Shown here: piece by piece, positions 24,550 through 62,417 of the stretch | Numbering within the stretch: the first letter of the stretch is position 1 | Layout of the letters: every line of letters starts with the position of its first letter | Source: Pseudovibrio exalbescens | GTDB taxonomy: Bacteria; Pseudomonadota; Alphaproteobacteria; Rhizobiales; Stappiaceae | DNA: 64,000 nt | Assembly: GCF_028737195.1 (NCBI RefSeq) | Contig: NZ_JAQZAJ010000001.1 | Coordinates: forward strand, 310,001-374,000 | Direction: 5' to 3' | Translations under genes and position numbers: made by a program | The notes under the pieces: model-generated | Database searches by the model: none | Told to the model about the DNA's origin: nothing | The model's input: only the letters and a program-made list of their open reading frames with translations

Positions 24550-25496
24550 CTGCTGGCTTTGGCGGTTTCGTAGGCCAAGATTGCTCCGGCGAGATCTTCC
24601 AGCGCCGCACCGACCGACTTGAAAAGGGTGATTTCGCTGTCGTCACGGCGACCTTGGTGGTGACCGCGACAAAGATCATAAAGATCTGCAAGAATAGAGT
24701 CGGGCGTCAGGATGCCCTCACGAAGCGGAATGGCAAAGTCGCCACCTTCCGTCATTGCACCTTCTCTGGTGTCGGCAAAAAGGCTGCTCTTCAAAATTGC
24801 GGCATCATCAGATTCTCGCATTGAGGGCTTGAACGCGCCGACAAGATCGAGATGGCAACCATTGGGCAAACAGTCCCCGGAGACCACGGGTGTTTCTGAA
24901 AGGGTGGCAACGGAAACAATATCCGCGGTTGCACAGGTCTCCGGTAAGTCCTCAGAAACTTCACATTGTATACCGAGGCGGTCGGCAGCAGCTGCAGCGA
25001 TTTTGTCGGCCTTGTCCTTTGAGCGGCCCCAGACAGTCACTTTTTCAAGCGCTCGAACTGCGGCGTGAGCTTCAATCAGATTCAGCGACAGCCGGCCAGT
25101 ACCAACCATTACCAAATGACGGGCGTTTTTTCTTGCCAGATAGTCAGCGGCCAGAGCGGAAGCGGCAGCCGTGCGGCGCGCTGTAAGCTCTCCGCCATCA
25201 ATCAGTGCCAGAGTTTCGCCGGTGGTGCCATTGGAGAGCACATAACTCGCTGATATGGCGGGCATGTTTCGGGTGCTGTTTCCGGGGAAAACACTGGCGA
25301 GCTTCACTCCAAAGTACTTTCCGGGCTGCCATGCGGGCATGAGAAGCAGTGTTGCATCCGGTTCGCCCGGGACTTCCATGTTGTGGTGATGGCGCAAAGG
25401 CATCTCGCAGCCAGAAGCAAACATGGCCCGGAGTGCGTCAATGAGTGCAGGGAAGGCGAGGTGGTTTTTTGTATCTTCGGGCCCGAGCAAGAGCAT
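24546..25496 (-). CDS. Ornithine cyclodeaminase/mu-crystallin family protein, split from its leader by the prophage
   Basis: 316 aa of the OCD/mu-crystallin family, NAD(P)-dependent dehydrogenases acting on amino or imino acids (ornithine cyclodeaminase, alanine dehydrogenase, ketimine reductase); the substrate cannot be told. Visible: KLASVFPGNSTRNMP, GELTARRTAAASALAADYL and a Rossmann motif VMVGTGRLS. The start codon is hybrid: A from the first prophage base (25496) and TG from the target duplication. Read across the empty site, the native leader AAAGGAGG-AACGAA-ATG now lies at 62,418-62,432. Unless a phage promoter reads out, the gene should be silent or weak. A GTG at 25520 inside the phage end would add 8 residues and is artificial. 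Confidence 0.9.
   Translation of the reverse strand: MLLLGPEDTKNHLAFPALIDALRAMFASGCEMPLRHHHNMEVPGEPDATLLLMPAWQPGKYFGVKLASVFPGNSTRNMPAISASYVLSNGTTGETLALIDGGELTARRTAAASALAADYLARKNARHLVMVGTGRLSLNLIEAHAAVRALEKVTVWGRSKDKADKIAAAAADRLGIQCEVSEDLPETCATADIVSVATLSETPVVSGDCLPNGCHLDLVGAFKPSMRESDDAAILKSSLFADTREGAMTEGGDFAIPLREGILTPDSILADLYDLCRGHHQGRRDDSEITLFKSVGAALEDLAGAILAYETAKASS
25491..25495. repeat. Left copy of the 5-bp target duplication GAGCA
   Basis: GAGCA immediately before the TGT terminus of the prophage; the same 5 bases follow the ACA terminus at 62413-62417. Confidence 0.9.
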
Positions 25497-25511
25497 GTGG
25501 GGGGGACTGTT

Positions 25512-25648
25512 ATTCTGCACAGGTGAAAAGTTGGGTTAATTCTCACGAACCCATTGAAAACGTTAAATAATGCTAATTTCGGGATAAAAAACCATTTTGC
25601 ACAACACTGCGTGGCTTATGGTCAATAAGGGCGCGAAGTTGTGCATAG
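25512..25648. repeat. Left-end candidate transposase-binding sites
   Basis: ATTCTGCAC at 25512-25520, TTTTGCAC at 25595-25602 and GTGCATAG at 25641-25648. The first and third have counterparts at the right end in inverted orientation. Their place, outside the repressor gene and within 150 bp of the terminus, is that of MuA end-binding sites. Function is inferred. Confidence 0.65.
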
Positions 25649-25673
25649 AGCGCGCAAAAATGCGCAGGCCCAA

Positions 25674-26333
25674 CTAGCTGAAGCGGTGCCCACACCAGAC
25701 GACTTTGCCGATGATGTGGAAATCTTCCAGATCAGAGCGCTTAAGCAACTCATCTTTGTACTCTGGATTTTGGCTAATAAGCTCAAGATCACCCTGAATG
25801 GTTGGTCGCAATCGCTTCACTCTTGCCATCCCGCCATAAACAAATGCGTAAACTCCATCCGCTAGCTCGTTGCGCTTGCGGTCAATCATCACCAAGTCGC
25901 CATCTGCGATGAGCGGATCCATGCTATCGCCTTGAGCGGTTAGAATGATTAGCCCATCCTGCGAAGCCCTTCCCAACTTGCCGCCCAAAAACTCGCGGGT
26001 AAACGGTATTTCTTCCACCGTCTCTAGATGGTCTCCGTTCAGTGCACCGGTACCTGCAGCCAAGCGGACGTCAACCCTTGGGATTGTAATAACGTTTAGA
26101 GGGAGTGTGCTCTGATCATCACTTGGCCGCATTGGCCCAATGCCCGTGGTAAGCCAACCTATGTTGACGTTAGCGCCTTTGCATATTGCTAAGAGCGTTT
26201 CAAGCGTCGGACTGGACCCCTTGCGTATACTGCGCAACGTTCCCTCACTAATACCGACTTTTTGCGCGAATAATCGCGCACTCAAGTCGCCTCTTATAAG
26301 ATCCAGTCGCTCAATAAAGCCGTCAGAGTTCAT
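25674..26333 (-). CDS. Prophage repressor (HTH + S24 peptidase)
   Basis: 219 aa starting MNSDGFIERL (ATG 26333, preceded by GGAG at 9 nt; ATG 26342 and 26372 lie closer to or above the SD). N-terminal HTH with ARLFAQKVGISEGTLRSIRKG (about residues 18-40), then a LexA/CI-like S24 peptidase with Ser in QGDSMDPLI and Lys in GGMARVKRL. Repressors of this kind cleave themselves when RecA is activated, so the phage is expected to be DNA-damage inducible, unlike Mu c. It is the only leftward gene of the early region. Confidence 0.9.
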   Translation of the reverse strand: MNSDGFIERLDLIRGDLSARLFAQKVGISEGTLRSIRKGSSPTLETLLAICKGANVNIGWLTTGIGPMRPSDDQSTLPLNVITIPRVDVRLAAGTGALNGDHLETVEEIPFTREFLGGKLGRASQDGLIILTAQGDSMDPLIADGDLVMIDRKRNELADGVYAFVYGGMARVKRLRPTIQGDLELISQNPEYKDELLKRSDLEDFHIIGKVVWCGHRFS

Positions 26334-26432
26334 TAAAACCATCTCCGACCGTCGTGCCAGAGTTACACACAATACGCCTCAACTCGCTATTCAATAATAA
26401 TATCAAATAGATAGCTTATTGTTACGCAACTT

Positions 26433-26492
26433 GCGCGATGATCATAACTCTGACGCGCGATATAACGCTTGATAATGCGTATTTTATCGCGC
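26433..26492. promoter_or_regulatory. Early control region with three GCGCGAT elements
   Basis: GCGCGAT at 26433-26439 and 26455-26461 and its complement ATCGCGC at 26486-26492, in the 261-bp gap between the divergent repressor and ner genes. The spacing and position fit operators for the repressor and/or Ner. The surrounding sequence is A/T-rich, suiting divergent promoters; I do not assign -35/-10 boxes. Confidence 0.5.
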
Positions 26493-26552
26493 ATCATGTC
26501 TTCATTCGTTACCAACGAGCGCAAATCACCAAGGTGAACTGCGCGGTGAAAA

Positions 26553-26581
26553 AAAAGCGGCTGCTGCAACAGTCCGCTTTT
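26553..26581 (+). terminator. Terminator-like hairpin just before ner
   Basis: AAAAGCGG pairs with CCGCTTTT, with an inner CTG/CAG, and ends in TTTT. It lies 13 nt before the ner ATG and abuts its ribosome binding site (GAAGGAGA). It may attenuate early transcription or hide the ner SD. Confidence 0.5.
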
Positions 26582-26594
26582 CGAAGGAGATCCA

Positions 26595-26915
26595 ATGGCC
26601 AAGCGTAAGCCCCAAACTTGGGACAAACACTCGATCAAAGCAGAGCTTCACCGACAAGGCTGGACCCTAACTGAGATTGCGACCAGAGAAAGCATGCACC
26701 GTACCACGCTGACCAAGGCTCTGGATACCGGCACAGGTCGCGGTGCGGAAATTATCTCCAAATATCTCAGTATTTCCATTCAGGAGTTGTGGCCCAATCG
26801 CAAGAAGCGCTCCCCTCATGTGATATACGATAGCGCTAAACATGGGCCTAGCGCTAGTCAGAAAAACCGTGTTCCGTCTGATAGTGGACAGCGTACGGCA
26901 GAGGCTGCAGCATGA
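26595..26915 (+). CDS. ner: Ner-like early regulator
   Basis: 106 aa; residues 1-70 match the Ner/Nlp layout: WDKHSIKAELHRQGWTLTEIATRE, then HRTTLTKALDTGTGRGAEIISKYLSISIQELWPNRK, with the hallmark ELWP. Mu Ner is a small DNA-binding protein that turns down early and repressor transcription after induction. The polar 35-residue C-terminal tail is longer than in Mu Ner. It is the first gene of the rightward early operon and has a strong SD (GAAGGAGA). Confidence 0.88.
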   Translation: MAKRKPQTWDKHSIKAELHRQGWTLTEIATRESMHRTTLTKALDTGTGRGAEIISKYLSISIQELWPNRKKRSPHVIYDSAKHGPSASQKNRVPSDSGQRTAEAAA

Positions 26916-27106
26916 AATGGTCTGGCCTCACTCTACCTACTGCCTCGCGGTTTTATCGCCGCTTTGATTATGGCAGCTGCAATGACAATCACCTGAAAGA
27001 CTTCGCCAGTATCCTCGCCCTTACCACAGTATGCATTGCACTTGCTGTTTGGGTCTGGGCGCTGTGTGTGATCGTTATGGCATATCGAACGGGAGTAGCC
27101 TCATGA
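26912..27106 (+). CDS. Small membrane protein, early operon
   Basis: 64 aa, overlapping the ner stop as ATGA. One clear TM helix (about residues 34-57, LALTTVCIALAVWVWALCVIVM). No family recognised. The tight overlaps with both neighbours argue that it is translated. Confidence 0.6.
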   Translation: MKWSGLTLPTASRFYRRFDYGSCNDNHLKDFASILALTTVCIALAVWVWALCVIVMAYRTGVAS

Positions 27107-27558
27107 GGACCCGTCGCTGCCAACATACAGGAGATCTGCTGAACTGGCAGCCTCCCAAAGTGGAGGCGCGCTTTGATCCCGACAGGGTACGGGCAGCATC
27201 TCTACCAGCAAAAGTCGCACGCGCACTTTCAGAGGCGCTTAGGGCCGACCGTCGCTCGCGAGAAGAAATTGCAGCCCTCTTATCGGATCGGCTTGGCGAA
27301 ACCATTCGCCGGGACAGTTTGGATGCCTGGGCCAGTGAAGCGCGCGAAAGCAGCAATATATCGGCTTACCGCCTAATGGCGTTGGTGGCTGTTTTGAACT
27401 CCAAAGAATTGCTCAACGAGCTCCTTAGCGGAACGGACATGATCGTGGTGGATCGGAAGTACCGCCCGCTAATCGAACGTGAACTCATGGAAGAAGCCCA
27501 ACTCAGGCTTAAGAAGATGATCCAACAAGCTGACCGTGAATGGAGGGGAAAGAAATGA
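27103..27558 (+). CDS. Conserved-type early phage protein of unknown function
   Basis: 151 aa from ATG 27103, overlapping the previous stop. An HTH-like pattern spans about residues 30-75 (ALSEALRADRRSREEIAALLSDRLGETIRRDSLDAWASEARE), suggesting DNA binding. Proteins of this kind are common just before the transposase in Mu-like phages of alphaproteobacteria. Role unknown. Confidence 0.7.
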   Translation: MRTRRCQHTGDLLNWQPPKVEARFDPDRVRAASLPAKVARALSEALRADRRSREEIAALLSDRLGETIRRDSLDAWASEARESSNISAYRLMALVAVLNSKELLNELLSGTDMIVVDRKYRPLIERELMEEAQLRLKKMIQQADREWRGKK

Positions 27559-29816
27559 CTGGAACTGTTCCAGCCCTCACAGAAAACGGCGGCCAGCGTA
27601 CGTGGTTCACGGCAGGCGAGTTGGCTGAGTTAAAGCTAGCGACCTTACCAGAAACAGAGAGCGCTTTAATTCGTTTTGTAAAACGCCAAGACTGGCAATC
27701 AACTTCACTTGCCCGCAAACGAAAAGGCCGCGGTGGCGGATGGGAATATCACATAGACCTTCTGCCTGAACCCGCACGGAAGGCGTTAGATGCCCGTTTC
27801 AATATCGAGCGCCTTAACGCTGGATTGCCCTCAGTGCAAAAGAATTCGCCCGTCTCCGAGCAAGCCACACTTGCAAAAGCCGACGGAAGTCAGCGCAAGT
27901 CTGCGGAAGCACGAAAGCAGATCCTTCAAATGGTCGAGCAACTCGTGGTCCGTGGCATGTCTTATGACAAGGCGGTTCTGGGTCTCGTAGCCAAAGTAAA
28001 GGTGCTGCTGGATCAGGATGTGCTTACTGAAGAAGAGCAGCATCTGTTGCAGTTGGTTCGCACCGCCAAAGACAAGGGCAAAGGCATTTCTCGCCGTGCA
28101 ATCTACAACTGGCGTAAAGCGTTCAGGGAAAATGGCTTTGCGGGCCTCATTCCTGGCAAACGCCAACAGGATCAGTTGAACTCGTCGCGATATGCATGGG
28201 CTCCGGGCTTTTTGAAATTTTATGCTGACCCGCGCAAACCGACTGTTGCGCTGGCACTAGATCTCTATCGCGCAAGCCTACCGGACCCTTCCAAGGCACC
28301 AAGCTATGACCAGGTGAAACGCTACCTGTCAAAGCTCAAGAAGGCTGACCCGATCTCCGCCTTTAAAGGGCGCGAAGGGATCTTGGCGCTCAAGGCGCGC
28401 AAGGTCTATGTCAGCAGATCCACTGAAGGCCTTGAGCCTACCGATATCTACACTGCCGACGGAAAAACCTTCGATGCGTTTGTAGCTCATCCTTTTTCAG
28501 GCAATCCGATCCGACCTGAGATAACCACCATTCTGGATGTGGCGACGCGCAAGTGCGTTGGTTACTCAATTGGCTTGAAGGAGAAGGCCTATGATGTGGC
28601 TGAGGCACTGCGCAACGCCAGTACGGCTGCCGGTGTGGCGGCGATCTTCTACGTCGACAACGGCAAAGGCTATAAAAACCTGCTTCTTGATGACGCTGCT
28701 GTGGGTATGCTTGCGCGCCTCGGCACTCACAAGGAGCACAGCCGCGCCTACAACTCCCAGGCTCGCGGGATCATAGAGCGCTTCAATGGCTCAGTTTACA
28801 CCCGCCTTGCCAAGACCCTGCCAAGTTATGCAGGGCGCGATCTGGACCGGGAGGCCTCTATGCGCCTTGACCGGCAGATTAAGAAGGATCTGAAGGAAAA
28901 GGGCGCATCTGAGCTGCTCATCGGCTGGAAGGAATTCCTGACCCTATTTGATGGGGCGCTTCAGTATTACAATGATCGTCCTCATTCCGGACTACCGGAA
29001 ACACGAGACCCCATTACCAGATCTAAACGGCACTTTTCGCCGAACGAGTATTGGGCGCATTTCGAGGCAAACGGTTTCCAGGCGGTGCGGCTCAGCGGTG
29101 AAGACAGTGATGATCTGTCCCGCCCGGCAATGCGCCGCAAGGTCTCCCGCGGGCTCGTTACCGTTGAGAAGAACCGCTACTTCGCGCTAGAGCTGGAGCG
29201 TTATGATCGCCAAGAGGTCATGGTTTGCTATGACATCTTGGATGCTGGCCAAGTCTGGGTTCGGGAGCTGGATTTCGTAGACGGAATTGAGACGCCGGGC
29301 GCGTTGATCTGCACAGCCAAGTTCGAAGGCAACAGCGAGGCCTACTTTCCAAAGCCCGTCATTGAAAGCGCCCGCGAGAAAAAGGCGGATGCAGCAAGGA
29401 AGCGGCTCCAGGACAAGTTACGGCGCGTGGAACAGGACCAGCGTCCGGGCTTCCTGCTGGAGCATTCCGGTGAGCAGCCCATGGAAGTCTATTCCTCAGC
29501 ACCCGGCTTTGAGGAGCCAAATGACGATGAACTGGTTGGCGTTGTTATGCAGCCGGTTCAGGCCGAGACCAACGTGGTTTCCATTTCAGAACCGGAACCT
29601 GTTCCAGCTCCCAAACCAATATCTCGATCAGGCAGGCCAGTATTTAAGTCCAAGGAAGAGCTTGCCATCTGGGTCCTCGATAACCCTGAGAAGATGACCG
29701 AACAGGACAAAAAAATCCTGTCGGGATGTCTCACCAACAGGACTTATCTGGATCTTTTTGAAGCGCTTGGCATCGACATAGAGGGCCTTCGAAACCTCCT
29801 CCGTGCCGCTGCCTAG
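27555..29816 (+). CDS. MuA-like DDE transposase
   Basis: 753 aa from ATG 27555 (GGAGGGG 6 nt upstream; ATG 27540 would add 5 residues). Carries out strand transfer of the phage ends for lysogeny and replication. N-terminal Mu-type DNA-binding domain (about 15-80), further HTH region (about 160-200), and an RNase H-like core with the acidic triad D302 (TADGKTF), D368 (YVDNGKG) and E408 (GIIERFNG). The C-terminal region (about 600-750) should contact MuB. Overlaps the upstream stop by 4 nt. Confidence 0.95.
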   Translation: MTGTVPALTENGGQRTWFTAGELAELKLATLPETESALIRFVKRQDWQSTSLARKRKGRGGGWEYHIDLLPEPARKALDARFNIERLNAGLPSVQKNSPVSEQATLAKADGSQRKSAEARKQILQMVEQLVVRGMSYDKAVLGLVAKVKVLLDQDVLTEEEQHLLQLVRTAKDKGKGISRRAIYNWRKAFRENGFAGLIPGKRQQDQLNSSRYAWAPGFLKFYADPRKPTVALALDLYRASLPDPSKAPSYDQVKRYLSKLKKADPISAFKGREGILALKARKVYVSRSTEGLEPTDIYTADGKTFDAFVAHPFSGNPIRPEITTILDVATRKCVGYSIGLKEKAYDVAEALRNASTAAGVAAIFYVDNGKGYKNLLLDDAAVGMLARLGTHKEHSRAYNSQARGIIERFNGSVYTRLAKTLPSYAGRDLDREASMRLDRQIKKDLKEKGASELLIGWKEFLTLFDGALQYYNDRPHSGLPETRDPITRSKRHFSPNEYWAHFEANGFQAVRLSGEDSDDLSRPAMRRKVSRGLVTVEKNRYFALELERYDRQEVMVCYDILDAGQVWVRELDFVDGIETPGALICTAKFEGNSEAYFPKPVIESAREKKADAARKRLQDKLRRVEQDQRPGFLLEHSGEQPMEVYSSAPGFEEPNDDELVGVVMQPVQAETNVVSISEPEPVPAPKPISRSGRPVFKSKEELAIWVLDNPEKMTEQDKKILSGCLTNRTYLDLFEALGIDIEGLRNLLRAAA

Positions 29817-29847
29817 CACACCTTTCAAGCACTATAGGAAATATCAG

Positions 29848-30618
29848 ATGCGGAATGAATTTGTAAAGACCTCTAACGTGAACCGCTTTTTGAATGCGCT
29901 AACAGCGCTCAATGAACGCGGTGCCCAAGAGGCTTGTCTGGTGGTCGTGGACGGACTGCCGGGCCTTGGTAAGACCACAACCTTGCGCAAGTGGGTGGCC
30001 CAGACCGGCTCTATTTACCTGCGTGCCAAGAAGGAATGGACCCCTTCATGGTTCATGAACGAGCTGCTGGAGACCTTGCGTGTCCATCCGCCTCACGCCT
30101 TCCAGAAAAAGTACCGTAAAGCTCTGGAAGAACTGGCGAGCCGTCAGCAATCAGCCGGAATTGAGAACCGTACATTCGGTCTCGTGATCGACGAGGCTGA
30201 CCACATTTCAAACAAGTCCGCCATTTTGGAAACCATCCGTGACATATCTGACATGATTGAGTTGCCGGTCATCCTCGTAGGTATGGGCAAAGTCAACGAC
30301 AACCTGACCCGGTTTCCTCAGGTGGCTTCCCGTGTTTCTCAGAAAGTGCGCTTTGAAAAATGCTCTGAAGAGGATGTGCGAGCCTTGCTCGACGGACGCT
30401 GCGAAGTGCCGGTGGCCGATGACCTTCTGAAGTTCGTGCATAAGGTTTCAAGCGGGTTTAACCGGGAAATCCTTGAGGCCATTGCAAATATCGAGCGTCA
30501 CGGACTGTTGAACCCTCCAGGCGAAGGGGGGCTGACCATGGCCGATATGGCGGGCGTTACCATTATCAACGATCGAACATCCAACCGCCCAATCAATGTG
30601 CCGGAGGTGCTGGCATGA
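29848..30618 (+). CDS. MuB-like AAA+ target-selection ATPase
   Basis: 256 aa from ATG 29848, after AGGAAAT. Walker A GLPGLGKTTT (about residues 36-45) and Walker B LVIDEADH (about 112-119) define an AAA ATPase of the MuB/TniB group, which binds target DNA, activates the transposase and gives target immunity. It follows the transposase directly, as in Mu. Confidence 0.92.
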   Translation: MRNEFVKTSNVNRFLNALTALNERGAQEACLVVVDGLPGLGKTTTLRKWVAQTGSIYLRAKKEWTPSWFMNELLETLRVHPPHAFQKKYRKALEELASRQQSAGIENRTFGLVIDEADHISNKSAILETIRDISDMIELPVILVGMGKVNDNLTRFPQVASRVSQKVRFEKCSEEDVRALLDGRCEVPVADDLLKFVHKVSSGFNREILEAIANIERHGLLNPPGEGGLTMADMAGVTIINDRTSNRPINVPEVLA

Positions 30619-31199
30619 TGCTTCCTGGCGAGATCCCTACAACCATACTCTACAGTTTGGGAGATGGTGCGTGCAGGACCATGGATGAACTGGATGAGGA
30701 ACTCGACCTCTCGCGCCGCCAGATATCCAAAGGAGCGACCAAACTGATCTTTCGCGGGTTGGCAGAACGCGTCGAGGCAGGCTGCTACCGGTTGACCGAC
30801 GCTGGAAAGCAGGCTGTTCAAAACGGCGTCCAACTCACCAGCGGCCCTATCAAGCCGGATCGAGGCAAACGCCGTAAGCCTCAGCGCAATACACTGAGAC
30901 AGCGCGCCTGGAACATAATGCGGATGGGAGATGCTTTTACTATTCCTGACCTGATGATGGTCGTTCAGACCGGAGGCGAGAAGACGGCCGAAAACAACTT
31001 GCACCGCTATATCCGGGCGCTGACGAAGCACGGTTATCTTCTCGAAATGCCACGCCGCATGGCTGGCACCAAGCTGACATCTAATGGGTACAAACGCTGG
31101 AAGTTGCTTAATGACACAGGGCCGATTGCGCCTGTTTTGCGATCCCGAAGCAACGTCATGTTCGATCACAATCTCGGTGAGGTGGTGCCATGCAGATGA
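30615..31199 (+). CDS. Winged-helix phage protein, unknown role
   Basis: 194 aa, coupled to the MuB-like gene by ATGA. Two winged-helix-like parts: residues 8-65 (CRTMDELDEELDLSRRQISKGATKLIFRGL) and about 95-160 (FTIPDLMMVVQTGGEKTAENNLHRYIRALTKHGYL). Likely a DNA-binding protein of the early operon, function unknown. Confidence 0.72.
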   Translation: MMLPGEIPTTILYSLGDGACRTMDELDEELDLSRRQISKGATKLIFRGLAERVEAGCYRLTDAGKQAVQNGVQLTSGPIKPDRGKRRKPQRNTLRQRAWNIMRMGDAFTIPDLMMVVQTGGEKTAENNLHRYIRALTKHGYLLEMPRRMAGTKLTSNGYKRWKLLNDTGPIAPVLRSRSNVMFDHNLGEVVPCR

Positions 31200-31549
31200 G
31201 AGTTGCTCGTATGCTTGAGGACCAGGTGCGCGAGCTTGGAAGCAAGCAGGCGGTTGCCTCCAAGATGGGTGTTTCCCGTACAGCAGTAAGCCTTTATCTG
31301 ACCGGCAGGTTGGAGGCAAACGGCGGGCGGATCGATCGGTTTGAAGCCAGAGCCATTGAATGCTTCTGCGACAGGGTGCTTTGCCCCCACCTCCACCAAG
31401 ACATTGCGCAGGAGGATTGCGCGGCATTTCGAGAACGCCCATGCCCCACATCTGATCCAGAGGCCCTTCGACACTGGACAGCATGTAGGCGCTGCCCAAT
31501 GAACCCGGCCAACGCCAGTCAAGAGGCCACATGCTCAGTGAAATGCTGA
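31190..31549 (+). CDS. HTH protein with Cys-rich C-terminal half
   Basis: 119 aa. Residues 5-45 form an HTH (GSKQAVASKMGVSRTAVSLYLTGRL). The C-terminal part has Cys at CFCDRVLCPHLH, EDCAAF, RPCPTS and ACRRCPMNP, suggesting a metal site. Overlaps its upstream neighbour by 10 bp. Such proteins occur in Mu-like early operons; role unknown. Confidence 0.7.
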   Translation: MQMRVARMLEDQVRELGSKQAVASKMGVSRTAVSLYLTGRLEANGGRIDRFEARAIECFCDRVLCPHLHQDIAQEDCAAFRERPCPTSDPEALRHWTACRRCPMNPANASQEATCSVKC

Positions 31550-31791
31550 AAGAACTGCGAGCGCTGTTCATTCTTCACCGGCCTGCAGAGCCCATGGAAC
31601 CAGAGACCTATGAGTTCATTGCCAGCTCTCTTCAGATCAGCAGCGAAATAGCCGAGCAGTTGGAGCGCCTCGCAAGAAGCAAAGCCCAGGAGCTTGAGCC
31701 ACAGCACCTCGACGATCCCAAGATCATGCCATTCCCGGTCTTTAGCCGGGACCCGAAATCAGACCTGAAAGGAACAGAAAATGACACTTGA
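31531..31791 (+). CDS. Small hypothetical early phage protein
   Basis: 86 aa, overlapping genes on both sides (19 and 11 bp). Mostly helical by composition (MLSEMLKELRALFILHRPAEP, then ISSEIAEQLERLARSKAQELE). No family recognised. Confidence 0.6.
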   Translation: MLSEMLKELRALFILHRPAEPMEPETYEFIASSLQISSEIAEQLERLARSKAQELEPQHLDDPKIMPFPVFSRDPKSDLKGTENDT

Positions 31792-32410
31792 GACCAACGC
31801 TCCGGCCATTCCGGAAGGCTACTGGAAGAACCCCAAAGGTGCCTATGTGCCGCTGGAGACAATCAAGCTCGAGCATCAGGAAGAAGATGCCTTGGTTAGA
31901 CAAATCGTTGGCACGGCACGACACCTTAATCGGTCACTTGCCAAGTTCAAATCTGATGCGCTTGGGGATGTGCAGGCCTTTCGCGATCTGATCGCAGAAA
32001 AATACGGCGCAAAACGAGGCGGCAAGAAGGGCAACATGACCTTGTTGACCTATGACGGAACGCTGGCCGTTCAGGTGGCGATTTCAGAGCACATCAGTTT
32101 TGGCCCTGAACTGGAAGCCGCGAAGTCGCTTATCGACCAGTGTATTAGCAGATGGAGCGAAGGAGCCAACCAAAACTTGCAGGTGCTGGTGGATGATGCC
32201 TTCCAGGTGGACAAGGAAGGCAAGATTTCGACCTCCCGAGTTCTGGCTCTACGCCGCTCCAATATTGAAGATGAAAACTGGCAAAAAGCCATGGATGCCA
32301 TCTCGGATGCTGTACGGGTCACTGGCTCTAAGACATACCTGCGGATTTACGAGCGGGATCCGATGACGGGCACGCAAACCCCGATCTCGCTTGATCTTGC
32401 AGCGGTTTAG
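31781..32410 (+). CDS. DUF3164 family phage protein
   Basis: 209 aa. The start (IPEGYWKNPKGAYVPLETIK) and the centre (MTLLTYDGTLAVQVAISEHISFGPEL) match the DUF3164 family found in nearly all Mu-like phages between B and gemA. Function unknown; it may act with DNA at replication-transposition. Confidence 0.88.
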   Translation: MTLETNAPAIPEGYWKNPKGAYVPLETIKLEHQEEDALVRQIVGTARHLNRSLAKFKSDALGDVQAFRDLIAEKYGAKRGGKKGNMTLLTYDGTLAVQVAISEHISFGPELEAAKSLIDQCISRWSEGANQNLQVLVDDAFQVDKEGKISTSRVLALRRSNIEDENWQKAMDAISDAVRVTGSKTYLRIYERDPMTGTQTPISLDLAAV

Positions 32411-32419
32411 GAGGCAAAG

Positions 32420-32824: not shown

Positions 32825-32826
32825 GG

Positions 32827-33144: not shown

Positions 33145-33226
33145 GTTAAACACTCCGTGGTGAAAGGAAAACTGTTCGAGTTATTCAATCATCGCTTAGC
33201 CTCAACTGCAACCTTGGGAGGCATCT

Positions 33227-33863: not shown

Positions 33864-33924
33864 TAGCACAGAACCTGAAAAAATATGAGGCTCGCTTCAG
33901 TACTGACGATCTGAGGCGGGCCTT

Positions 33925-47871: not shown

Positions 47872-47874
47872 AGC

Positions 47875-50606: not shown

Positions 50607-50620
50607 ATGGGGAGATTGCA

Positions 50621-54072: not shown

Positions 54073-54080
54073 AGGCCGCC

Positions 54081-55193: not shown

Positions 55194-55202
55194 GGAGGCT
55201 CC

Positions 55203-55712
55203 ATGTCCCGAGTAACCGATGGCGAAGCCACAAGCCCGTTCAAGCGCGGCATCATTAAAGAACATGGCGCGGGTGGCAGAGCGCGGGTGGCGTTCCAGGA
55301 TGAGGACGGCAATGCTTCAGCGTGGTTATCCGTCAGCCAGCGTAACACCAAAGGGCAAAAGAGCTACGACATTCCTGCGGTTGGCACGCAGGTGTGGTGC
55401 CTTCTGGATGCCTATGGAGAGGACGGAGTCATCGGCGGTGCGGTATGGTCCGACGAGGACGCGCCTCCTTCCGAAGATCCGAACATTACCCATGAAGTTT
55501 TCGGGCCGCTGGAGATCTTCATCAACAAGACCACGGGCGAAATGAAGATCAAAGGCGCGCCCAAGATTACGCTGGACGCAAGCCTGATCGAGTTGAAAGG
55601 TGTTGTGAAGATTGAAGGTGCCAGTGTCACCCACAACGGCAAGGAAGTGGGTGAAAAGCATGTTCACAGCGGCATTTTGCCGGGACCTGCCAATACAGGG
55701 CCGGTGGTTTAG
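55203..55712 (+). CDS. Baseplate spike protein gpV-like
   Basis: 169 aa. OB-fold domain (IIKEHGAGGRARVAFQDEDGNASAWLSVSQ; DIPAVGTQVWCLLDAYGEDGVIGGAVWSDEDAPP) and a C-terminal beta-helix with the end HNGKEVGEKHVHSGILPGPANTGPV, whose HxH motif binds iron in the P2 V apex. The membrane-piercing tip of the tail. Confidence 0.92.
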   Translation: MSRVTDGEATSPFKRGIIKEHGAGGRARVAFQDEDGNASAWLSVSQRNTKGQKSYDIPAVGTQVWCLLDAYGEDGVIGGAVWSDEDAPPSEDPNITHEVFGPLEIFINKTTGEMKIKGAPKITLDASLIELKGVVKIEGASVTHNGKEVGEKHVHSGILPGPANTGPVV

Positions 55713-55795
55713 ATCAGCAATACACGACATGAACTATAAAGTTGTTTTTATATCAACATGACTCATCTAGGGTTTAAAAAACTTTTGAGGGCGGA

Positions 55796-56680
55796 ATGGA
55801 TAGCAACTTTGTAATTCACTTTTCTGGACATGATGCAGATCAACATTTGCTTAATATGGGGCAGTTGGGCAAGGCGCTGGTAGGTATAGATACAATTGTC
55901 AATACAGGGCTGATTGCTCTGACTCAAAATCGTCTGCCGAAAAAAGGGGAGCGGTATCAGCTACAGATTAAGGCAGGAGAGCCCAGAGAAGGATCATACG
56001 AGTTACTCGCATGGCTGAAAGACAATATAGCTGTTGGATTACCACTGGTGCATGAAGTCATGAATGCACATGCAAAAGAAGTCCTTTCGAACTGGTTGGG
56101 TTGGGTGTTTAAAATGGCAAGTGGGCGAGAAAAAGAAGCGGATCCGCACTATCAAGAGTTAATGGTATTCGCGAGGGAAATGCATAAAGATCGGCTGACG
56201 AGCGAAGAGAAGAATCGCGAGTTCTTTTTAAACGTCCTCGATAAAGTGATGCCTGCTGCAAAAGATGCAGTTGCACCCATCGGTCGTTCTGCAAAGGAGC
56301 TTTCCTTTCATGAACAGCAATCTTCTGAGTCCCCGACAACGACTGTAGATGTTGCTATGGCCGATGTAATTCGTTCAGGAGAGAAGTTAGTTATTGGAGA
56401 TCTAGCCCCATTTCGCGTCCGAGCTGACGGCTTAATCCGCCACAATCGCCAATTGAAGGTTGAACACCCTGAAGCGGACACCGGCTTTCTAACCTGCGCA
56501 GTTTCAGACCCCGTTTTTTCAGAGGACAACAACGTATATATTCAAGCGGTAGCAAACAGAGCTTTTTTAGATATTACGGCAAAGCCCACACGAAGAGAAG
56601 ACGGTACTTTGAAGACACTAACCATCATGGATGCCAAGATCGCGGAAGCAGACGATGGTGAAAATGGTGTAACGATCTAG
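55796..56680 (+). CDS. Cargo protein C inserted in the baseplate operon, unknown function
   Basis: 294 aa, more A/T-rich than its neighbours, placed between V and W where P2- and Mu-like phages have none. N-terminal alpha/beta part (NFVIHFSGHDADQHLLNMGQLGKALVGIDTIVNTGLIALTQNRLP, then GEPREGSYELLAWLKDNIAVGLPLVHEV), a middle helical region and a C-terminal beta part (NNVYIQAVANRAFLDITAKPTRREDG). No signal peptide; a soluble protein. No function recognised; morons at such sites often affect superinfection or host fitness. Confidence 0.78.
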   Translation: MDSNFVIHFSGHDADQHLLNMGQLGKALVGIDTIVNTGLIALTQNRLPKKGERYQLQIKAGEPREGSYELLAWLKDNIAVGLPLVHEVMNAHAKEVLSNWLGWVFKMASGREKEADPHYQELMVFAREMHKDRLTSEEKNREFFLNVLDKVMPAAKDAVAPIGRSAKELSFHEQQSSESPTTTVDVAMADVIRSGEKLVIGDLAPFRVRADGLIRHNRQLKVEHPEADTGFLTCAVSDPVFSEDNNVYIQAVANRAFLDITAKPTRREDGTLKTLTIMDAKIAEADDGENGVTI

Positions 56681-56690
56681 AGTATAGGGA

Positions 56691-56703
56691 CGGAACACTT
56701 CCG
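56691..56703. promoter_or_regulatory. GGAAC/TTCC dyad, candidate activator site before the baseplate operon
   Basis: CGGAACACTTCCG, differing in one base from CGGAACAGTTCCG at 33851-33863; both are followed by TA and both lie about 65 bp before a start codon of an operon. It probably supplies a new late promoter after cargo gene C. Confidence 0.45.
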
Positions 56704-56771
56704 TAACCTCTACATCTCCCGCGCGTTAGCTTGCCGACAACTAAAGGTTTTGGCAAGGACGTTAGCGGGCG

Positions 56772-57155
56772 ATGGTTTTAGATCCTCTCCATTGGCAGAT
56801 TAGGTTGGCGCAGGAAGATGACGCGCCTTGGAACGAGGCTGCAATCGGCCTTGATGACCTTGCCCAGAGCATCCGCCTGATCTGCCTGACGCCGAAGCTT
56901 TCTGTTCCCACCGAGCCAGAACAGTTTTGCGATGCGCTGAGTTATGTTGACCGTGTGCCCGCTGAGGCCATTCCGGGCATCTCCAAGGAGGTCTGGGAGG
57001 GCATAAGCCGCTGGGAGCCACGGGTGTTGTTGGATCGGGTCGATGTGGCCCAGGCGGGCTTTGCCTACTTCACTGCCTCCATTTACTGGCGTCCCCGTTC
57101 TGACGTGCTTGCCGAGCTTCAGCGCACCGATGTTGACCTGATGAGGGTTGCCTGA
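56772..57155 (+). CDS. Baseplate wedge protein gpW/gp25-like
   Basis: 127 aa. The C-terminal half (EGISRWEPRVLLDRVDVAQAGFAYFTASIYWRP) matches the GPW/gp25 family. ATGs of W and J overlap by one base at 57155. Part of the wedge that holds sheath to baseplate. Confidence 0.85.
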   Translation: MVLDPLHWQIRLAQEDDAPWNEAAIGLDDLAQSIRLICLTPKLSVPTEPEQFCDALSYVDRVPAEAIPGISKEVWEGISRWEPRVLLDRVDVAQAGFAYFTASIYWRPRSDVLAELQRTDVDLMRVA

Positions 57156-58297
57156 TGGTCGATCTCATCAAAGCCCTTAGCCCCGCCGAGTTGATCCGGC
57201 GGGGCCCACCGCAGCACTTCACAACCTCCGCCAAGGCCTGGAAGGAAAAGCTTGTGGCGTGGTGGGAAACCCATCCAGACGGCCCGCAGCGCAAGCTCTA
57301 TCCCGGTCACTATGAAATGCTGCTGATCAACGTGCTGGCCTATGGTTTTTCCCTCTTGGGCAAAGAGGGCCAAGATGCAGCGGACAAGCGCTGGCTGTTG
57401 TTTGCCTCCGGCCATTCTCTGGATGTGGCAGCGGCTAATAACGGCACCTTTCGGCTGAAGGCCAAGGCCGCCACAGTGACACTCAAGTTTACGCTTGAAG
57501 CACCGCGCACAAGCGATCTGGCTCTGCCTGCAGGGCTTACGGTAGGCTCCGCGGCGTTTTCATTTGCACTTGATAGTCAGTTGATCCTTAAGGCAGGAGA
57601 AACGGAAGCCGTTGGTCGTGCAACCGCTGTTACGCCGGGGGTCGAGGCCAACGGTCTGCTTGCAGGCCAGTTGACCCAGATGCCAGAGAGCTATCCGGAT
57701 GTGAAGGTGGTGAATACCAGCGCGAGCGATGGCGGCACCGAGGACGAAACAGACGCTTCCTTGCTGGAGCGCGCAACCCATGCCTTTGACCGTATTTCCA
57801 AGGCGGGACCAAAGGAAAGCTACCGCCAACAGGCCCGTGGGTTTTCACCTGACATCTTGGATGTAGAGGTGCTGCGGCCTGAGCCAGGGAAAATCGAACT
57901 TTATGTGCTGACCAAATCCGGGGCACCAAGTTCCGCTTTTTGTAGTGACCTGCTGGCCTACATGGACCCGGAAACCAAGCGCCCTCAGGGCGATGATTTG
58001 AGTGTTCACCCGGCAGACCAAGTGGTGCTGGACATTACGGGCACGTTGAAGACAACCGGCGATTTCGAGAGCATTCGGCAGGCCGCCGAAGACGCCATTC
58101 GCAGCGCTGGGTTGATCTGGTCGCAGCGGCTTGGGGAATATCTGGCACTTTCGGCCTTAACACCAGCAATACGGGCTGTTGAGGGCGTCATTGATGTTCA
58201 GTTGGAGGTGAGCGGGCTTTCAGGCAGGCAGCTTGGACCAACTCAGTTCGCCCTTATCCGAGACATTACATTAAGCGCGGAGACAAGCCATGGCTGA
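57155..58297 (+). CDS. Baseplate protein gpJ-like
   Basis: 380 aa of the baseplate J/gp47 family: GHYEMLLINVLAYGFSLLGKEGQDAADKRWLLFASGHSLDVAAANNGTFR, ASDGGTEDETDASLLERATHAFDRISKAGPKESYRQQARGFSPDILDVEV. Conserved length and layout. Peripheral wedge. Confidence 0.92.
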   Translation: MVDLIKALSPAELIRRGPPQHFTTSAKAWKEKLVAWWETHPDGPQRKLYPGHYEMLLINVLAYGFSLLGKEGQDAADKRWLLFASGHSLDVAAANNGTFRLKAKAATVTLKFTLEAPRTSDLALPAGLTVGSAAFSFALDSQLILKAGETEAVGRATAVTPGVEANGLLAGQLTQMPESYPDVKVVNTSASDGGTEDETDASLLERATHAFDRISKAGPKESYRQQARGFSPDILDVEVLRPEPGKIELYVLTKSGAPSSAFCSDLLAYMDPETKRPQGDDLSVHPADQVVLDITGTLKTTGDFESIRQAAEDAIRSAGLIWSQRLGEYLALSALTPAIRAVEGVIDVQLEVSGLSGRQLGPTQFALIRDITLSAETSHG

Positions 58298-59042
58298 CCG
58301 GCGCTTTCCCCATACCCTGATCCCGCCAAGCATCAACGAGCCACGTTCGCGCGCTGTGCTCGACGCCTTTGCGGCGATGGCCTCTGACTTTGACTTTTCG
58401 GTGCTGATGCAGCGCAACGGGCAAGAGATTTCTTCCGAGGCCTTGTCGCTCGCCCTTCATGACCGCTCATTGGAAGAGTTCATCGGTGAAGATGGCTTGC
58501 CAGAGCCTTTGGCGCGCAAACTTGTCGACAGGGCTTTTGAACTACACGAGAAAAAGGGGCGTGATGAAGGCGTTAAGCTTGCACAAAGCCTGCTTGGTAT
58601 CGCCGCTGACATTGAGCATTGGTGGCAGCAGAGCCCACAAGGCCTGCATGATACCCATGAGATCACACTGAGGTTGGGCGATCTGGATGAACCGCCTGAG
58701 GTACCGCTCAGCCTTGAGGTGCAAAAAAGCGCGTTCAAATCAGTCGCGGCAACGAAGCGCCACTCGCAGGAGACCGCCACACGTTGGCTGTCCATTACGC
58801 GCGCGCCAATCCGTTTTCGCGGCTTCGTGTCTGACCTTCATCAAACAAAGGTCCTGCCTCCGATCTCCACCGAGCTATCTAGCGCCATGCCGCTTGGCAT
58901 CGGTGCCGCTGCCTCAACCGGGGACGTCCTGCGCATCTGGCCATGGCGACCTGACGCGATCTCAAGTCATGGCCCAGCCGGGGCAGCGGCGCATGTGCGC
59001 GCCCGTTTTGTAACCACAACCGTCTATCCGAGGCCTCTATGA
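58290..59042 (+). CDS. Tail protein gpI-like
   Basis: 250 aa, overlapping J by 8 bp. P2 gpI family in the N-terminal 150 residues (the short motif QKSAFKSVAATKRHSQETA follows), with a C-terminal extension that ends ATTVYPRPL. Links baseplate and fibres. Confidence 0.85.
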   Translation: MADRRFPHTLIPPSINEPRSRAVLDAFAAMASDFDFSVLMQRNGQEISSEALSLALHDRSLEEFIGEDGLPEPLARKLVDRAFELHEKKGRDEGVKLAQSLLGIAADIEHWWQQSPQGLHDTHEITLRLGDLDEPPEVPLSLEVQKSAFKSVAATKRHSQETATRWLSITRAPIRFRGFVSDLHQTKVLPPISTELSSAMPLGIGAAASTGDVLRIWPWRPDAISSHGPAGAAAHVRARFVTTTVYPRPL

Positions 59043-60529
59043 GCAGTCCGACCTATTACACACGCCTGACCGACCATGGCTCGGCAGCGCTGAATGATGC
59101 CATTACTGGTGGCGGTGGCATTACATTGAGCCAGTTGGCTCTTGGAGATGCCAACGGCACGTCCTATGACCCTGACGGCTCCGAAGCCGCTTTACGCAAT
59201 GAGCTGCATCGTGTGGCAATCACCTCCATCACGCAGGATGTGCAGAACCCGGCATGGCTTGTCATTGAAGCGATTGTGCCACCAGATGTGGGCGGCTGGT
59301 GGATCCGCGAGGCCGGGGTGTTCGATACGCAAGGCAACATGTTCGCCATTGCGAAGTACCCCGAGACCTACAAGGCGATCCTTTCTGACGGGACGGCCTC
59401 TACGCTCACCATTCAGATCGTTCTGCAGATCACGAACACGGACGCCATCCAGCTCGTGGTCAATCCGCTTGATGGCTATGCCACCCAAGGCTGGGTGGTC
59501 TCGACCTATCCGTGGGCAACCAAAGCGGAAGCTGCTGATGAGACGGTTGAGCGCAAGGTGATCGACCCGAAACGGCTGCATGAAACACTGGCAGAGGTGA
59601 TGCCGCCACGCGATCACACACATCAGATGGACCAGGTCGTTGGGTTGATTGCGGCGTTGAACGCAAAATCTGGTGGGGACCATACTCACCGCTATGCCCA
59701 GTTGGAAGACAAGCCGACCACACTTGATGAGCTTGGTGTGCTTGATGTTTACACCAAGGCGCAGGTGGATCAGTTGATCGCTGATCTGATCAGCGCCGCT
59801 CCGGGGGCTTTGAATACGCTTGATGAGTTGGCCAACGCGTTGGGAGACAATCCTAACTTTGCAACGGATATCCTGAATGCTGTGGGGGCAAAGCTTGATG
59901 CCAACAAGGTCAGCGCGTTCTCACTCACCGTGCTGGCCTTAACAAGCTCCAGCGCATGGCGAGAAAAGCTTGGTCTCGGGTCTTTAGCCACCAAATCGAC
60001 CTCCTATGTGAAGGGGCTTGTCGGCTCTGCCGTGCCTCCCGGCACTGTCGCGCACTATGATGGCACGTCCGCGCCCAATGGCTGGCTCATCCGAAATGGT
60101 GCTGCGGTTTCGAGGGCGACTTACTCTGACCTTTTCAACGTCATCGGGACGAGACACGGTAACGGCAACGGCTCAACCACGTTCAACCTGCCTGATGATC
60201 GAGGCCGGGTAGATCGCGGGCTGGATCTTGGTAAAGGGCTCGATCCAGGACGTGTGATCGGCAGCCAGCAAGGGGACGCGATCCGGAACATTACCGGTGA
60301 GCTGTGGGGGTATCATATCGATTCTTATGTCGGACTAAACGCTTATGGCGGCGAAGGAATAGAAAATGGTGCTCTGACATTCACCAACAGAAGCACTTCC
60401 CGAATAGCTCAAAGTGCAAGCCACAACAACCAAAGTCGTGGCATCAAGCTGGACGCCTCACGACAAGTTCCCACGGCGCATGAAAACCGCATGGTGAACA
60501 CCGCCTATCTTCCGATCATCAAGTACTGA
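59039..60529 (+). CDS. Tail fibre protein (gpH-like)
   Basis: 496 aa, ATGA-coupled to I. N-terminal tail-collar fibre domain (TRLTDHGSAALNDAITGGGGITLSQLALGDANG; VPPDVGGWWIREAGVFDTQGNMFAIAKYPETYK), a shaft, and a C-terminal tail collar domain (VPPGTVAHYDGTSAPNGWLIRNGAAVSRATYSDLFNVIG). The distal part should decide host range. Confidence 0.9.
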   Translation: MSSPTYYTRLTDHGSAALNDAITGGGGITLSQLALGDANGTSYDPDGSEAALRNELHRVAITSITQDVQNPAWLVIEAIVPPDVGGWWIREAGVFDTQGNMFAIAKYPETYKAILSDGTASTLTIQIVLQITNTDAIQLVVNPLDGYATQGWVVSTYPWATKAEAADETVERKVIDPKRLHETLAEVMPPRDHTHQMDQVVGLIAALNAKSGGDHTHRYAQLEDKPTTLDELGVLDVYTKAQVDQLIADLISAAPGALNTLDELANALGDNPNFATDILNAVGAKLDANKVSAFSLTVLALTSSSAWREKLGLGSLATKSTSYVKGLVGSAVPPGTVAHYDGTSAPNGWLIRNGAAVSRATYSDLFNVIGTRHGNGNGSTTFNLPDDRGRVDRGLDLGKGLDPGRVIGSQQGDAIRNITGELWGYHIDSYVGLNAYGGEGIENGALTFTNRSTSRIAQSASHNNQSRGIKLDASRQVPTAHENRMVNTAYLPIIKY

Positions 60530-60537
60530 GGCGAATT

Positions 60538-61212
60538 ATGAGCACGAAAGTTGTCTATCAGCTCGACGACAAGGGCTATCTCGTTGGCGAAGCTTTGGCC
60601 CATGAGAGCCCATTGGAGGCTGGGGTATATCATCTGCCAGCGGGAACCGTGGAAACGCCGCCGCCCGCTCTTTCATCCAATCAGGCAGCTCGATGGGACG
60701 GGGCTTCATGGCACACGGTGCCCGATCATCGCGGCGAAGCATGGTTCGATACGCAGGGCGAAGCCGTTGAAATTCTGGATTATGGTGATCCGGAGGCACT
60801 GGGCTTAACACGCAGTTTTACACCGCCGCCGCCCACAACAGACGAGCTTTTGCAAGAACTGGGCACCATACGCAAGCTCGTGGAAGCGCAAGGGGTCCCA
60901 ATCACGCTTGCATCTGGCGAACAGGATGAAGTGGACAGCGATGACAAGGCTCAGGCCAAGCTGCTCTCAATTCTGACGCAGATCGACAAGGGGCTTCGTC
61001 CCGATCCCAGCACCTTCAAGTTCAAGAGCAACGTTTCTCGGAAAATCACCAATGCCGACATGCTCAGGATCGTTCAAGCGGTTCTGGCGCACGTTCAAGC
61101 CTGCTTTGAGGCGGAAGGCGATGTTCAACGCCAGATCCGTTCCGGGGTTCTAGACACAAAGGAGGCCTTAAAGCCCGCCTTCGACTTCGCGCTGAAGCAC
61201 GAGACTGGTTGA
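60538..61212 (+). CDS. Tail fibre assembly-like protein
   Basis: 224 aa directly after the fibre gene. Starts VVYQLDDKGYLVGEALAHESPLEAGVYHLPAGTVETPPPALSSNQAARWDGASWHTVPDHRG, the usual form of fibre-assembly or DUF4376-type proteins, followed by a helical half. Probably chaperones or caps the fibre. Confidence 0.8.
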   Translation: MSTKVVYQLDDKGYLVGEALAHESPLEAGVYHLPAGTVETPPPALSSNQAARWDGASWHTVPDHRGEAWFDTQGEAVEILDYGDPEALGLTRSFTPPPPTTDELLQELGTIRKLVEAQGVPITLASGEQDEVDSDDKAQAKLLSILTQIDKGLRPDPSTFKFKSNVSRKITNADMLRIVQAVLAHVQACFEAEGDVQRQIRSGVLDTKEALKPAFDFALKHETG

Positions 61213-61249
61213 AGGCGGAAGACATCCGGCGCTTTGCATTTGAAAACCC

Positions 61250-61325
61250 ATAAATATGGAGCGGAAGGCCCAGAGTTTTTCTCTGGGCACCGGGCCACAA
61301 GTACCACCCTGAGCCCGGCCAGTGC
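61250..61325 (+). other. Structured non-coding stretch before com
   Basis: GCCCAGAG (61268-61275) and CTCTGGGC (61281-61288) form an 8-bp stem with a T5 loop, directly followed by a second possible stem GGCAC-GGGC / GCCC-GTGCC reaching 61325. It lies within the 188-bp gap upstream of com, which holds no clear ORF. It may be a terminator without U-tract or a regulatory RNA. Confidence 0.45.
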
Positions 61326-61400
61326 CAACATGCATAACACTGCCTCCGCCGCATCAACCCCCAAGCAGGCGTTGTGGAGGTGTTTTATGCGAGAGAACGA

Positions 61401-61604
61401 ATGGAGTCTATCCGCTGTCAGAAGTGTTCGGCGCTTCTGTTCAAAAAAGATCACAAAGCCCTGGACGGGCGCATAGAAATCAAGTGCCGCCGTTGTGGCA
61501 CCTTCAATGACCTGAGGCCCGATGAGCCCATTCGCGATCAAAGAAAAAATGACGTTAAGCCCCATCACTCCCGTGAAGCCGGTCGCACCGTACATTGGCG
61601 GTAA
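61401..61604 (+). CDS. com: Com-like translational regulator (zinc finger)
   Basis: 67 aa from ATG 61401. ESIRCQKCSALLFKKDHKALDGRIEIKCRRCGTFNDLRP carries the CxxC...CxxC zinc site of Mu Com, an mRNA-binding protein that opens the mom start region. Here the gene overlaps a DNA methylase gene by up to 83 nt, in another frame, instead of mom. Confidence 0.85.
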   Translation: MESIRCQKCSALLFKKDHKALDGRIEIKCRRCGTFNDLRPDEPIRDQRKNDVKPHHSREAGRTVHWR

Positions 61605-62280
61605 AATGCAACTCGCAAAACACGTGGCTCATCGAGTTCATGAAGTACCCCACAAAACTTATGTTGAACCTTTTGTCGGCATGGGCGGGGTCTTCTTTCG
61701 GCGCGCAGAGCAGCCAAAGTGCGAAGTCATCAATGACGTCTCCGGTGATGTGGTGACGCTCTTTCGCATCCTTCAGCGGCACTACCCGCAGTTTCTTGAG
61801 GTGCTCAAATTTCAACTCACCAGCCGTTCCGAGTTTGAGCGGTTGTCCCTTACTGATCCAACGACCTTGACCGACTTGGAGCGCGCCGCCCGATTTCTCT
61901 ATCTGCAACGCACCTCCTTCGGCGGCAAGGTCGTTCCCTTGCTGGAAGATGTGCATGAGCGCCTCTCTGGCGTCATCATAGAGAACCTCGCCTATGCTGA
62001 CTGTATCAAGCGATATGACCGTCCCGATACACTCTTCTATCTGGACCCTCCGTATTGGGCCTGTGAGACCTACTATGGGAAAGGGGTCTTTAGTGCCGAT
62101 GACTTCCAAAAGTTGGCGGACCAGCTTGCTGGCATTCAGGGACGCTTCCTTCTGTCGATCAACGATGCTCCGGAGATCAGAGAGGTGTTTGCAAGTTTTG
62201 AAATGGAAGAGGTCGGGCTCAATTATACCGTCAACCCGAAGAGCCAGAAGAAGGTTCAAGAGCTAATTATCAGCAATTAA
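61522..62280 (+). CDS. D12-class DNA adenine N6-methyltransferase
   Basis: 252 aa from ATG 61522; ATG 61549 (MTLSPITP) is an alternative start. FxGxG-type SAM motif: APYIGGKMQLAKHV and YVEPFVGMGGVFFRR; catalytic DPPY in FYLDPPYWACET (about residue 173). It should methylate phage DNA against restriction, the job of Mom in Mu. The start lies inside com, so Com may control its translation. Last gene of the prophage, 132 bp before the right end. Confidence 0.92.
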   Translation: MSPFAIKEKMTLSPITPVKPVAPYIGGKMQLAKHVAHRVHEVPHKTYVEPFVGMGGVFFRRAEQPKCEVINDVSGDVVTLFRILQRHYPQFLEVLKFQLTSRSEFERLSLTDPTTLTDLERAARFLYLQRTSFGGKVVPLLEDVHERLSGVIIENLAYADCIKRYDRPDTLFYLDPPYWACETYYGKGVFSADDFQKLADQLAGIQGRFLLSINDAPEIREVFASFEMEEVGLNYTVNPKSQKKVQELIISN

Positions 62281-62363
62281 AAGGTGCTGTAGAAGGGGTG
62301 TTAGAAAGGAGGCTTGAGATGCGTTTCTAACGCCCCAAGTGACCACTGGGTTCCTGCAGAGCA

Positions 62364-62412
62364 CTATGCACTTCAAAACGCCCATCGGTGCAGAATTTCG
62401 CGCCGCGCGACA
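62364..62412. repeat. Right-end candidate transposase-binding sites and terminus
   Basis: GTGCAGAAT (62388-62396, the complement of ATTCTGCAC) lies 16 nt from the ACA terminus at 62412, mirroring the left end. CTATGCAC at 62364-62371 mirrors GTGCATAG of the left end. Confidence 0.7.
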
Positions 62413-62417
62413 GAGCA
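62413..62417. repeat. Right copy of the 5-bp target duplication GAGCA
   Basis: GAGCA directly after the ACA terminus; matches 25491-25495. Confidence 0.9.

Follow-up and report, generated by a model that had tools for sequence, protein, structure and literature searches.

A complete-looking Mu-type prophage at a host start codon in Pseudovibrio exalbescens, with a candidate RexAB-like gene pair among its head genes

The DNA analyzed here (the window) is a stretch of 64,000 nucleotides, positions 310001-374000 of contig C1 (NZ_JAQZAJ010000001.1) of the 4.39-Mb Pseudovibrio exalbescens assembly GCF_028737195.1, and it holds a Mu-like prophage that interrupts a host gene at its start codon. The prophage begins with TGT at position 25496 and finishes with ACA at position 62412, the terminal form of Mu-type elements, and a 5-bp duplication, GAGCA, is present. 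The features at its two boundaries are as follows.

24546..25490, minus strand: host gene (a cyclodeaminase according to the sequence-only reading that preceded this work), interrupted at the start codon by the prophage, as seen from flank joining and relative loci
25491..25495, no strand: left copy of the target duplication, 5 bp, GAGCA, read directly
25496..62412, plus strand: Mu-like prophage, TGT...ACA, 36,917 bp, delimited by its ends, a shared 9-mer and the termini of relatives
25512..25520, plus strand: ATTCTGCAC, candidate transposase-binding core, bases 17-25 of the left end
62388..62396, minus strand: ATTCTGCAC, candidate transposase-binding core, at equal offset in the right end
62413..62417, no strand: right copy of the target duplication, 5 bp, GAGCA, read directly

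By itself, a TGT...ACA pair with a 5-bp repeat is a weak signature and is not decisive, because 12 such pairs with equal 5-mers, the prophage pair among them, occur in the 64-kb window at a spacing of 36-38.5 kb. Such pairs, at any spacing from 10 to 60 kb in the window, were also examined for an inward-facing 9-mer shared at equal offset (no more than 40 bp from the ends); the sole pair with one was that of the prophage ends. One symmetrical copy of ATTCTGCAC per end is a candidate for the internal transposase sites of a Mu-type element, additional ones being discerned by eye alone. End patterns were searched for in 16 genomes of the genus, allowing up to two mismatches and no indels. Each pattern occurred once in the host genome; the left one was present 6 times in 3 of the 16 genomes and the right one 13 times in 6 of them, two of these 13 looking like chance.

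Twenty-five relative loci were compared, a set that includes duplicates of one contig and pieces holding the right-hand part only. Nine distinct elements gave left-end alignments that started precisely at base 1, and a pattern search added a tenth with the left terminus (L046). This terminus is nearly identical in the ten, with one or two bases varying and L060 one base short, and the host DNA beyond it is unlike among them, L046 and L058 excepted. By eye, the insertions at L046 and L058 lie a few bases apart in apparently the same target sequence in two genomes. The alignments of L053 and L054 started inside the element, and no left-end match was found by alignment in L047, L050, L057 and L065. 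On the right, the alignment with the copy on contig C1 of genome G005 ended at the same base as the prophage; those with the two copies on G005 contig C6 ended ~100 bases early, and the C6 ends were located by reading. The refuting case named in the earlier reading, a related phage that contains sequence from outside these limits, was not encountered. The earlier proposal of two GAGCA copies bounding 36,917 bp is borne out by direct reading, by the unique shared 9-mer and by the relatives' termini, which together support ends that can be read to the exact base.

When joined, the host flanks read AAAGGAGG-AACGAA-ATG CTC, with a spacer of six bases. Fifty other genomes had some match to the target gene, and the 29 best-matching loci of other genomes were tested: the start codon was at the exactly aligned position in all 29, and a Shine-Dalgarno-like motif was found within 22 nt in 20. 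Read across the left junction, ACA of the phage end followed by TGCTC gives ACATGCTC, so that the target gene retains an ATG without a Shine-Dalgarno sequence; at the right junction the former Shine-Dalgarno sequence and ATG open a frame of at least 50 codons (in the stretch read) into the phage end. The insertion parts the leader and the Shine-Dalgarno sequence from the target gene, and ATG is kept at both junctions. The sequence-only reading had held that removal of the element with one GAGCA restores the gene start, with which the start codons at all 29 loci agree; its implied loss of the ATG does not stand. The target gene is probably silenced through loss of its leader and Shine-Dalgarno sequence, not of its ATG.

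Several observations weigh against an insertion with these limits. There are 11 other TGT/ACA pairs with 5-bp repeats at similar spacing within the window, and the comparison loci for the target gene come from other genomes, no prophage-free genome of the same species being among them. In Pseudovibrio sp. Ad37 (probably genome G004), left and right ends number four each; two 5-mers, GAACG and AATTC, are found on both sides, the right partner being on another contig, and two of the four left ends (GCCTC and TCTAT) have no matching right partner. The flanks of the G005 C1 copy are unequal (GGTGA/CTTAC), and the two G005 C6 copies (L060-L063) pair crosswise only, by TTGGA and GATCA, the first copy being mismatched with itself. 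These crosswise duplications fit either recombination between inverted copies or a mis-join, inseparable here because one prophage copy seems to run off the end of the C6 contig. Were the ends a chance coincidence of TGT, ACA and a 5-bp repeat, the true element being longer or shorter, the other pairs in the window would be its best argument; yet the relatives' alignments start at the same base with other DNA outside, and the joined flanks restore a gene start, and we consider such a coincidence extremely improbable. We hold with high confidence that a Mu-type transposable phage has been inserted in the start codon of the target gene, giving a complete-looking element at 25496-62412 with GAGCA duplicated.

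The interior of the prophage has the composition of a Mu-type phage: a DDE transposase with an AAA+ partner at the left, the Mu module order, and a size in the range of about 37-40 kb. The modules named in the earlier reading, from repressor through methylase, were all recovered as Pfam or PHROG matches.

25674..26372, minus strand: CI-type repressor, helix-turn-helix (HTH) and peptidase S24 (PF00717 3.5e-20, PF01381 6.4e-7; AG at 106-107)
26595..26915, plus strand: Ner-like regulator (HTH_35 2.3e-14, phrog_769)
27540..29816, plus strand: Mu-type transposase A, 758 aa (Mu-transpos_C, HTH_Tnp_Mu_1)
29803..30618, plus strand: AAA+ transposition protein B (TniB, phrog_296)
32420..32824, plus strand: GemA-like protein (PF06252 2.5e-25)
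33423..33842, plus strand: Mor-like late activator (phrog_836 1.6e-18; Pfam Mor slightly below the cut-off)
33925..35157, plus strand: endolysin, N-acetylmuramidase (Pfam/PHROG)
35777..40855, plus strand: small terminase-like protein (DUF1804), large terminase, portal, and MuF-like protein with a PBECR2 domain (Pfam/PHROG)
40984..41472, plus strand: virion morphogenesis protein, Mu G-like (PF05069 2.1e-23)
43969..46512, plus strand: head maturation protease to major head protein (phrog_976, phrog_1005)
48095..60529, plus strand: contractile tail, comprising sheath, tube, tape measure, gpU, gpD, baseplate, J, I and fibre (Pfam/PHROG)
61522..62280, plus strand: D12-class adenine methylase (PF02086 5e-23)

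A DUF3164 match is also present, listed between the TniB-like B protein and GemA (Pfam/PHROG). The PBECR2 domain of the MuF-like head protein (39584-40855) is C-terminal and nuclease-like, with a match at 5.9e-32.

Compared with the G005 C1 copy, the genes of the prophage are collinear and mostly full length. No match was found in that copy for the gene pair at 41574-43222 (the cargo pair, described below), 32821-33234, 55796-56680 and 60538-61212; the tail fibre (1-323 of 496) and 61234-61476 match in part, 27031-27558 matches in two pieces, and 26387-26638, 35055-35573, 35450-35776 and 50204-50500 align through stops in that copy. Seven long copies of transposase A, 77-80% identical to it, were found in three further genomes of the genus; a match at 1e-20 was obtained in 5 of the 16 genomes searched, the host counted, and the others were partial or weaker. 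The seven relatives in named genomes comprise five Pseudovibrio, one Cohaesibacter and one Kordiimonadaceae. To judge from these alignments, the prophage is broadly collinear with its relatives and an ordinary member of a known phage kind. The literature covered, limited in range, gave no report of this prophage, and the available text of a genus-wide Pseudovibrio study treats phages only in bulk (PMC5959193).

The prophage might still be a decayed or grounded one, with good ends and a hidden lesion, that has lost induction. Some small open reading frames (ORFs), at 26387-26638 (minus strand), 35450-35776, 50204-50500 and 61234-61476, align to relatives through stops and would suit such a lesion, though some are maybe non-genes. 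The named module genes, however, are open and mostly match the relatives lengthwise, the exceptions being mainly variable fibre and cargo genes, as the earlier statement of no visible damage would have it, and both the ends and the repressor motifs are present; we regard decay as unlikely. The repressor combines HTH and S24 domains with the Ser and Lys motifs GDSM and ARVKRL and, at 106-107, an Ala-Gly, features that serve in self-cleavage in repressors of the LexA/CI type. The PF00717 and PF01381 matches and these motifs uphold the S24 assignment made before, and because of them RecA-dependent induction of the prophage is plausible.

The complete-looking phage that we favor would work as follows. 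Transposase, binding the symmetrical 9-mers ATTCTGCAC at both ends, would have catalyzed the strand transfer that inserted the phage into the host-gene start codon and duplicated GAGCA. RecA-stimulated cleavage of the repressor would lead to derepression, the induced prophage would enter replicative transposition, and packaging would carry host DNA at the virion ends.

Phage Mu has a characteristic module order, GemA, Mor, the F, G and portal proteins and a 5-bp target duplication, and its repressor is not known to be of the S24 type. The prophage shares the module order, GemA, a Mor-like protein, homologues of Mu F, G and portal, and the 5-bp duplication; it differs in its S24 repressor and in its B protein, which is of the TniB/phrog_296 type without MuB_C. 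MuB_C (PF09077) was not found in the prophage, and its sole match in the genome is at G000:C1:266469, in a second prophage region. This region (G000:C1:266469-275810, with MuB_C and Portal_Mu matches) is likely another Mu-like prophage of this contig, distinct from the first, and the end patterns of the prophage studied here were not found in it. The transposase is of the RcapMu/D3112 type: among 162 matching phage records, the best transposase rows were those of Rhizobium phage RR1-B (38.5% identity) and Rhodobacter phage RcapMu (36%), aligned over 97-98% of the length. A megablast search of 25400-50000 only, against 50,697 phage records, gave no match. In the portion of PMC5488378 available, the tail of RcapMu is likened to those of two siphovirus-like phages, whereas sheath and tube genes are present here. 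The D3112 group resembles the prophage in its TGT...ACA ends (as given in the accessible part of PMC5977238), in the gene order portal, F, G, cargo, protease, major head, and in a transposase of about 37%; it differs in that the prophage has contractile-tail genes, and in that D3112 carries AcrF2 and two small ORFs where the prophage has a 343-aa and a 205-aa cargo pair.

This cargo pair, missed in the sequence-only reading, lies between the G-like gene and the protease.

41574..42605, plus strand: cargo gene 1, 343 aa, candidate RexA-like protein (phrog_3482 3.5e-18)
42605..43222, plus strand: cargo gene 2, coding for a membrane protein of 205 aa, candidate RexB-like partner (hydropathy scan)
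43879..43911, no strand: 15-bp inverted repeat with A/T tails, resembling a two-way terminator

The interval from the end of G (41472) to the protease (43969) has a GC content of 0.46, against 0.546 in the rest of the phage, and 6 of 706 overlapping segments of equal size are as low in GC as the two cargo genes. A simple hydropathy scan gave three hydrophobic segments in cargo gene 2 and four in lambda RexB. Scanning the cargo region for promoters yielded 1 site, fewer than the 3.2 of shuffled sequence.

Relatives of gene 1 were found in 2 genomes besides the host among 87 of the family, the match in G008 crossing one stop, and phrog_3482 in 3 besides the host among 385 of the class. Beyond the window, 12 loci were opened, some of them near-identical, and in all 12 gene 1 is followed by a gene whose product is hydrophobic by look (segments unscanned); at the five family and class loci among them this product has 169-204 aa. 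In three phage records the pair is just downstream of a repressor gene, directly so in Perceval, whereas in phi1_092021 and Ab105-2phi one small gene intervenes. Four viral contigs carry both genes, three of the four close to phi1_092021, and one phage-record copy is annotated 'DefenseFinder protein'. No relative emerged from three viral_contigs scans, for which the queries were window gene 1, A3 and the L100 gene; window gene 1 had no tblastn match at 1e-3 in phage records, and the four BFVD matches with E <= 0.001 are every one listed as uncharacterised.

Folding the window gene 1 protein from its single sequence gave a model of no use (pLDDT 31.9). A family member was modelled with low confidence (pLDDT 57, pTM 0.61) and submitted to Foldseek, and lambda RexA (8twq) ranked first and third of 350,542 PDB chains, a weak match (prob 0.95/0.87, E 2.3e-3/1.1e-2, TM 0.32, rmsd about 19). 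The pair is also like lambda rexAB in that a soluble-type gene precedes a membrane-type gene and in that its relatives are downstream of a repressor gene. Kiwa (KwaA/KwaB) was considered and rejected, as no Kiwa model matched in PADLOC or Pfam and Foldseek weakly points to RexA. The cargo pair most likely acts like lambda RexAB, a view that we hold with somewhat more conviction than doubt; a DNA-binding sensor would then trigger a membrane effector against other phages.

This assignment has to contend with a number of adverse results. Comparison with lambda RexA and RexB by hhalign gave nothing; the PADLOC RexA/RexB models match lambda and no tested family member, and the few PADLOC matches of the family, all to other models, are weak (PDC-S04 0.015; 4TM effector 0.0014). 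The model and its superposition are poor (pLDDT 57; Foldseek E 2.3e-3, TM 0.32, rmsd 19.6), and the family profile, run against PDB sequences, matched HipB-like proteins only (best E 0.73). The window pair is among head genes between G and the protease, far from the repressor, unlike the lambda pair and the RexAB-type one of Pseudomonas putida; the P. putida pair was recognised by HHpred and structure, according to the available text of PMC12894663, whereas no sequence-profile match to RexA or RexB was obtained here. An unrelated membrane-linked moron, serving as a virion part or in counter-defence (e.g. as an anti-CRISPR), is a serious alternative, if the less favored one: the pair occupies the AcrF2 position of D3112, and the absence of a sequence-level match and the weak fold both suit it. 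It would leave without account, however, the soluble-type and membrane-type genes that three phage records show just behind a repressor gene and the rank of RexA in the PDB search, and as an anti-CRISPR, gene 1 (343 aa) would be far larger than D3112 AcrF2 (CDS 273 bp). In the literature covered, again limited in range, no transposable phage was reported to carry a RexAB-type pair.

The G-protease interval, where AcrF2 is found in D3112, was also inspected in relatives. In L206 it encodes a PIN_8 protein (PF18476 1.2e-62) and a protein of 460 aa that no Pfam family matches well; the two genes overlap on opposite strands. The G005 C6 copy, judged by eye from its similar sequence, has a PIN_8 protein there too. 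L208 has a pair of 281 and 167 aa, the second protein having four hydrophobic segments; this pair is not alignable to the window cargo pair. Small ORFs only were seen in L207 and the G005 C1 copy, a 221-aa ORF in L209, and L205 is without the G side. For a short antisense ORF kept in the intervals of several relatives, tblastn showed nothing convincing in the window (E 0.52). PADLOC matches of the interval genes were weak (PbeC 0.0042 for the PIN protein; cyclase 0.019 for the first L208 protein), and because of this a defence role for them is a guess. The accessible part of PMC4378225 describes a low-GC anti-CRISPR region, RGP G. We tentatively suggest, at a little under even confidence, that the interval is an arms-race site common to Mu-like phages, with anti-CRISPRs in those of the Pseudomonas D3112 type and changing candidate anti-phage genes in the Pseudovibrio relatives, such as a PIN_8 nuclease-like gene and a second pair of a soluble and a four-segment membrane protein; the window element would carry there a remote RexAB-type exclusion pair uncoupled from cI, a late-region site serving exclusion in the prophage state.

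Next to the prophage, a stretch of ~52 bp from the 3' part of tRNA-Lys (window 62566-62618) is repeated at 96% identity 34.8 kb away (G000:C1:407413-407464), where at 407 kb the tRNA-Lys is intact. Beside the tRNA-Lys fragment lies a weak match to an integrase (22.7 bits against a cut-off of 27.1), the region of interest taking in 63305-63808 on the minus strand as well. A tRNA-integrated element seems to start directly beside the Mu-like prophage.

A base-exact, apparently intact transposable prophage, together with several relatives from the same genus, allows the ends of such elements to be compared. If the proposed function of the cargo pair is true, RexAB-like exclusion would extend, by remote resemblance, to a family that is unnamed in the Pfam and PADLOC copies used, and the anti-CRISPR site of Mu-like phages would be a wider cargo site, which may guide the search for defence and counter-defence genes.

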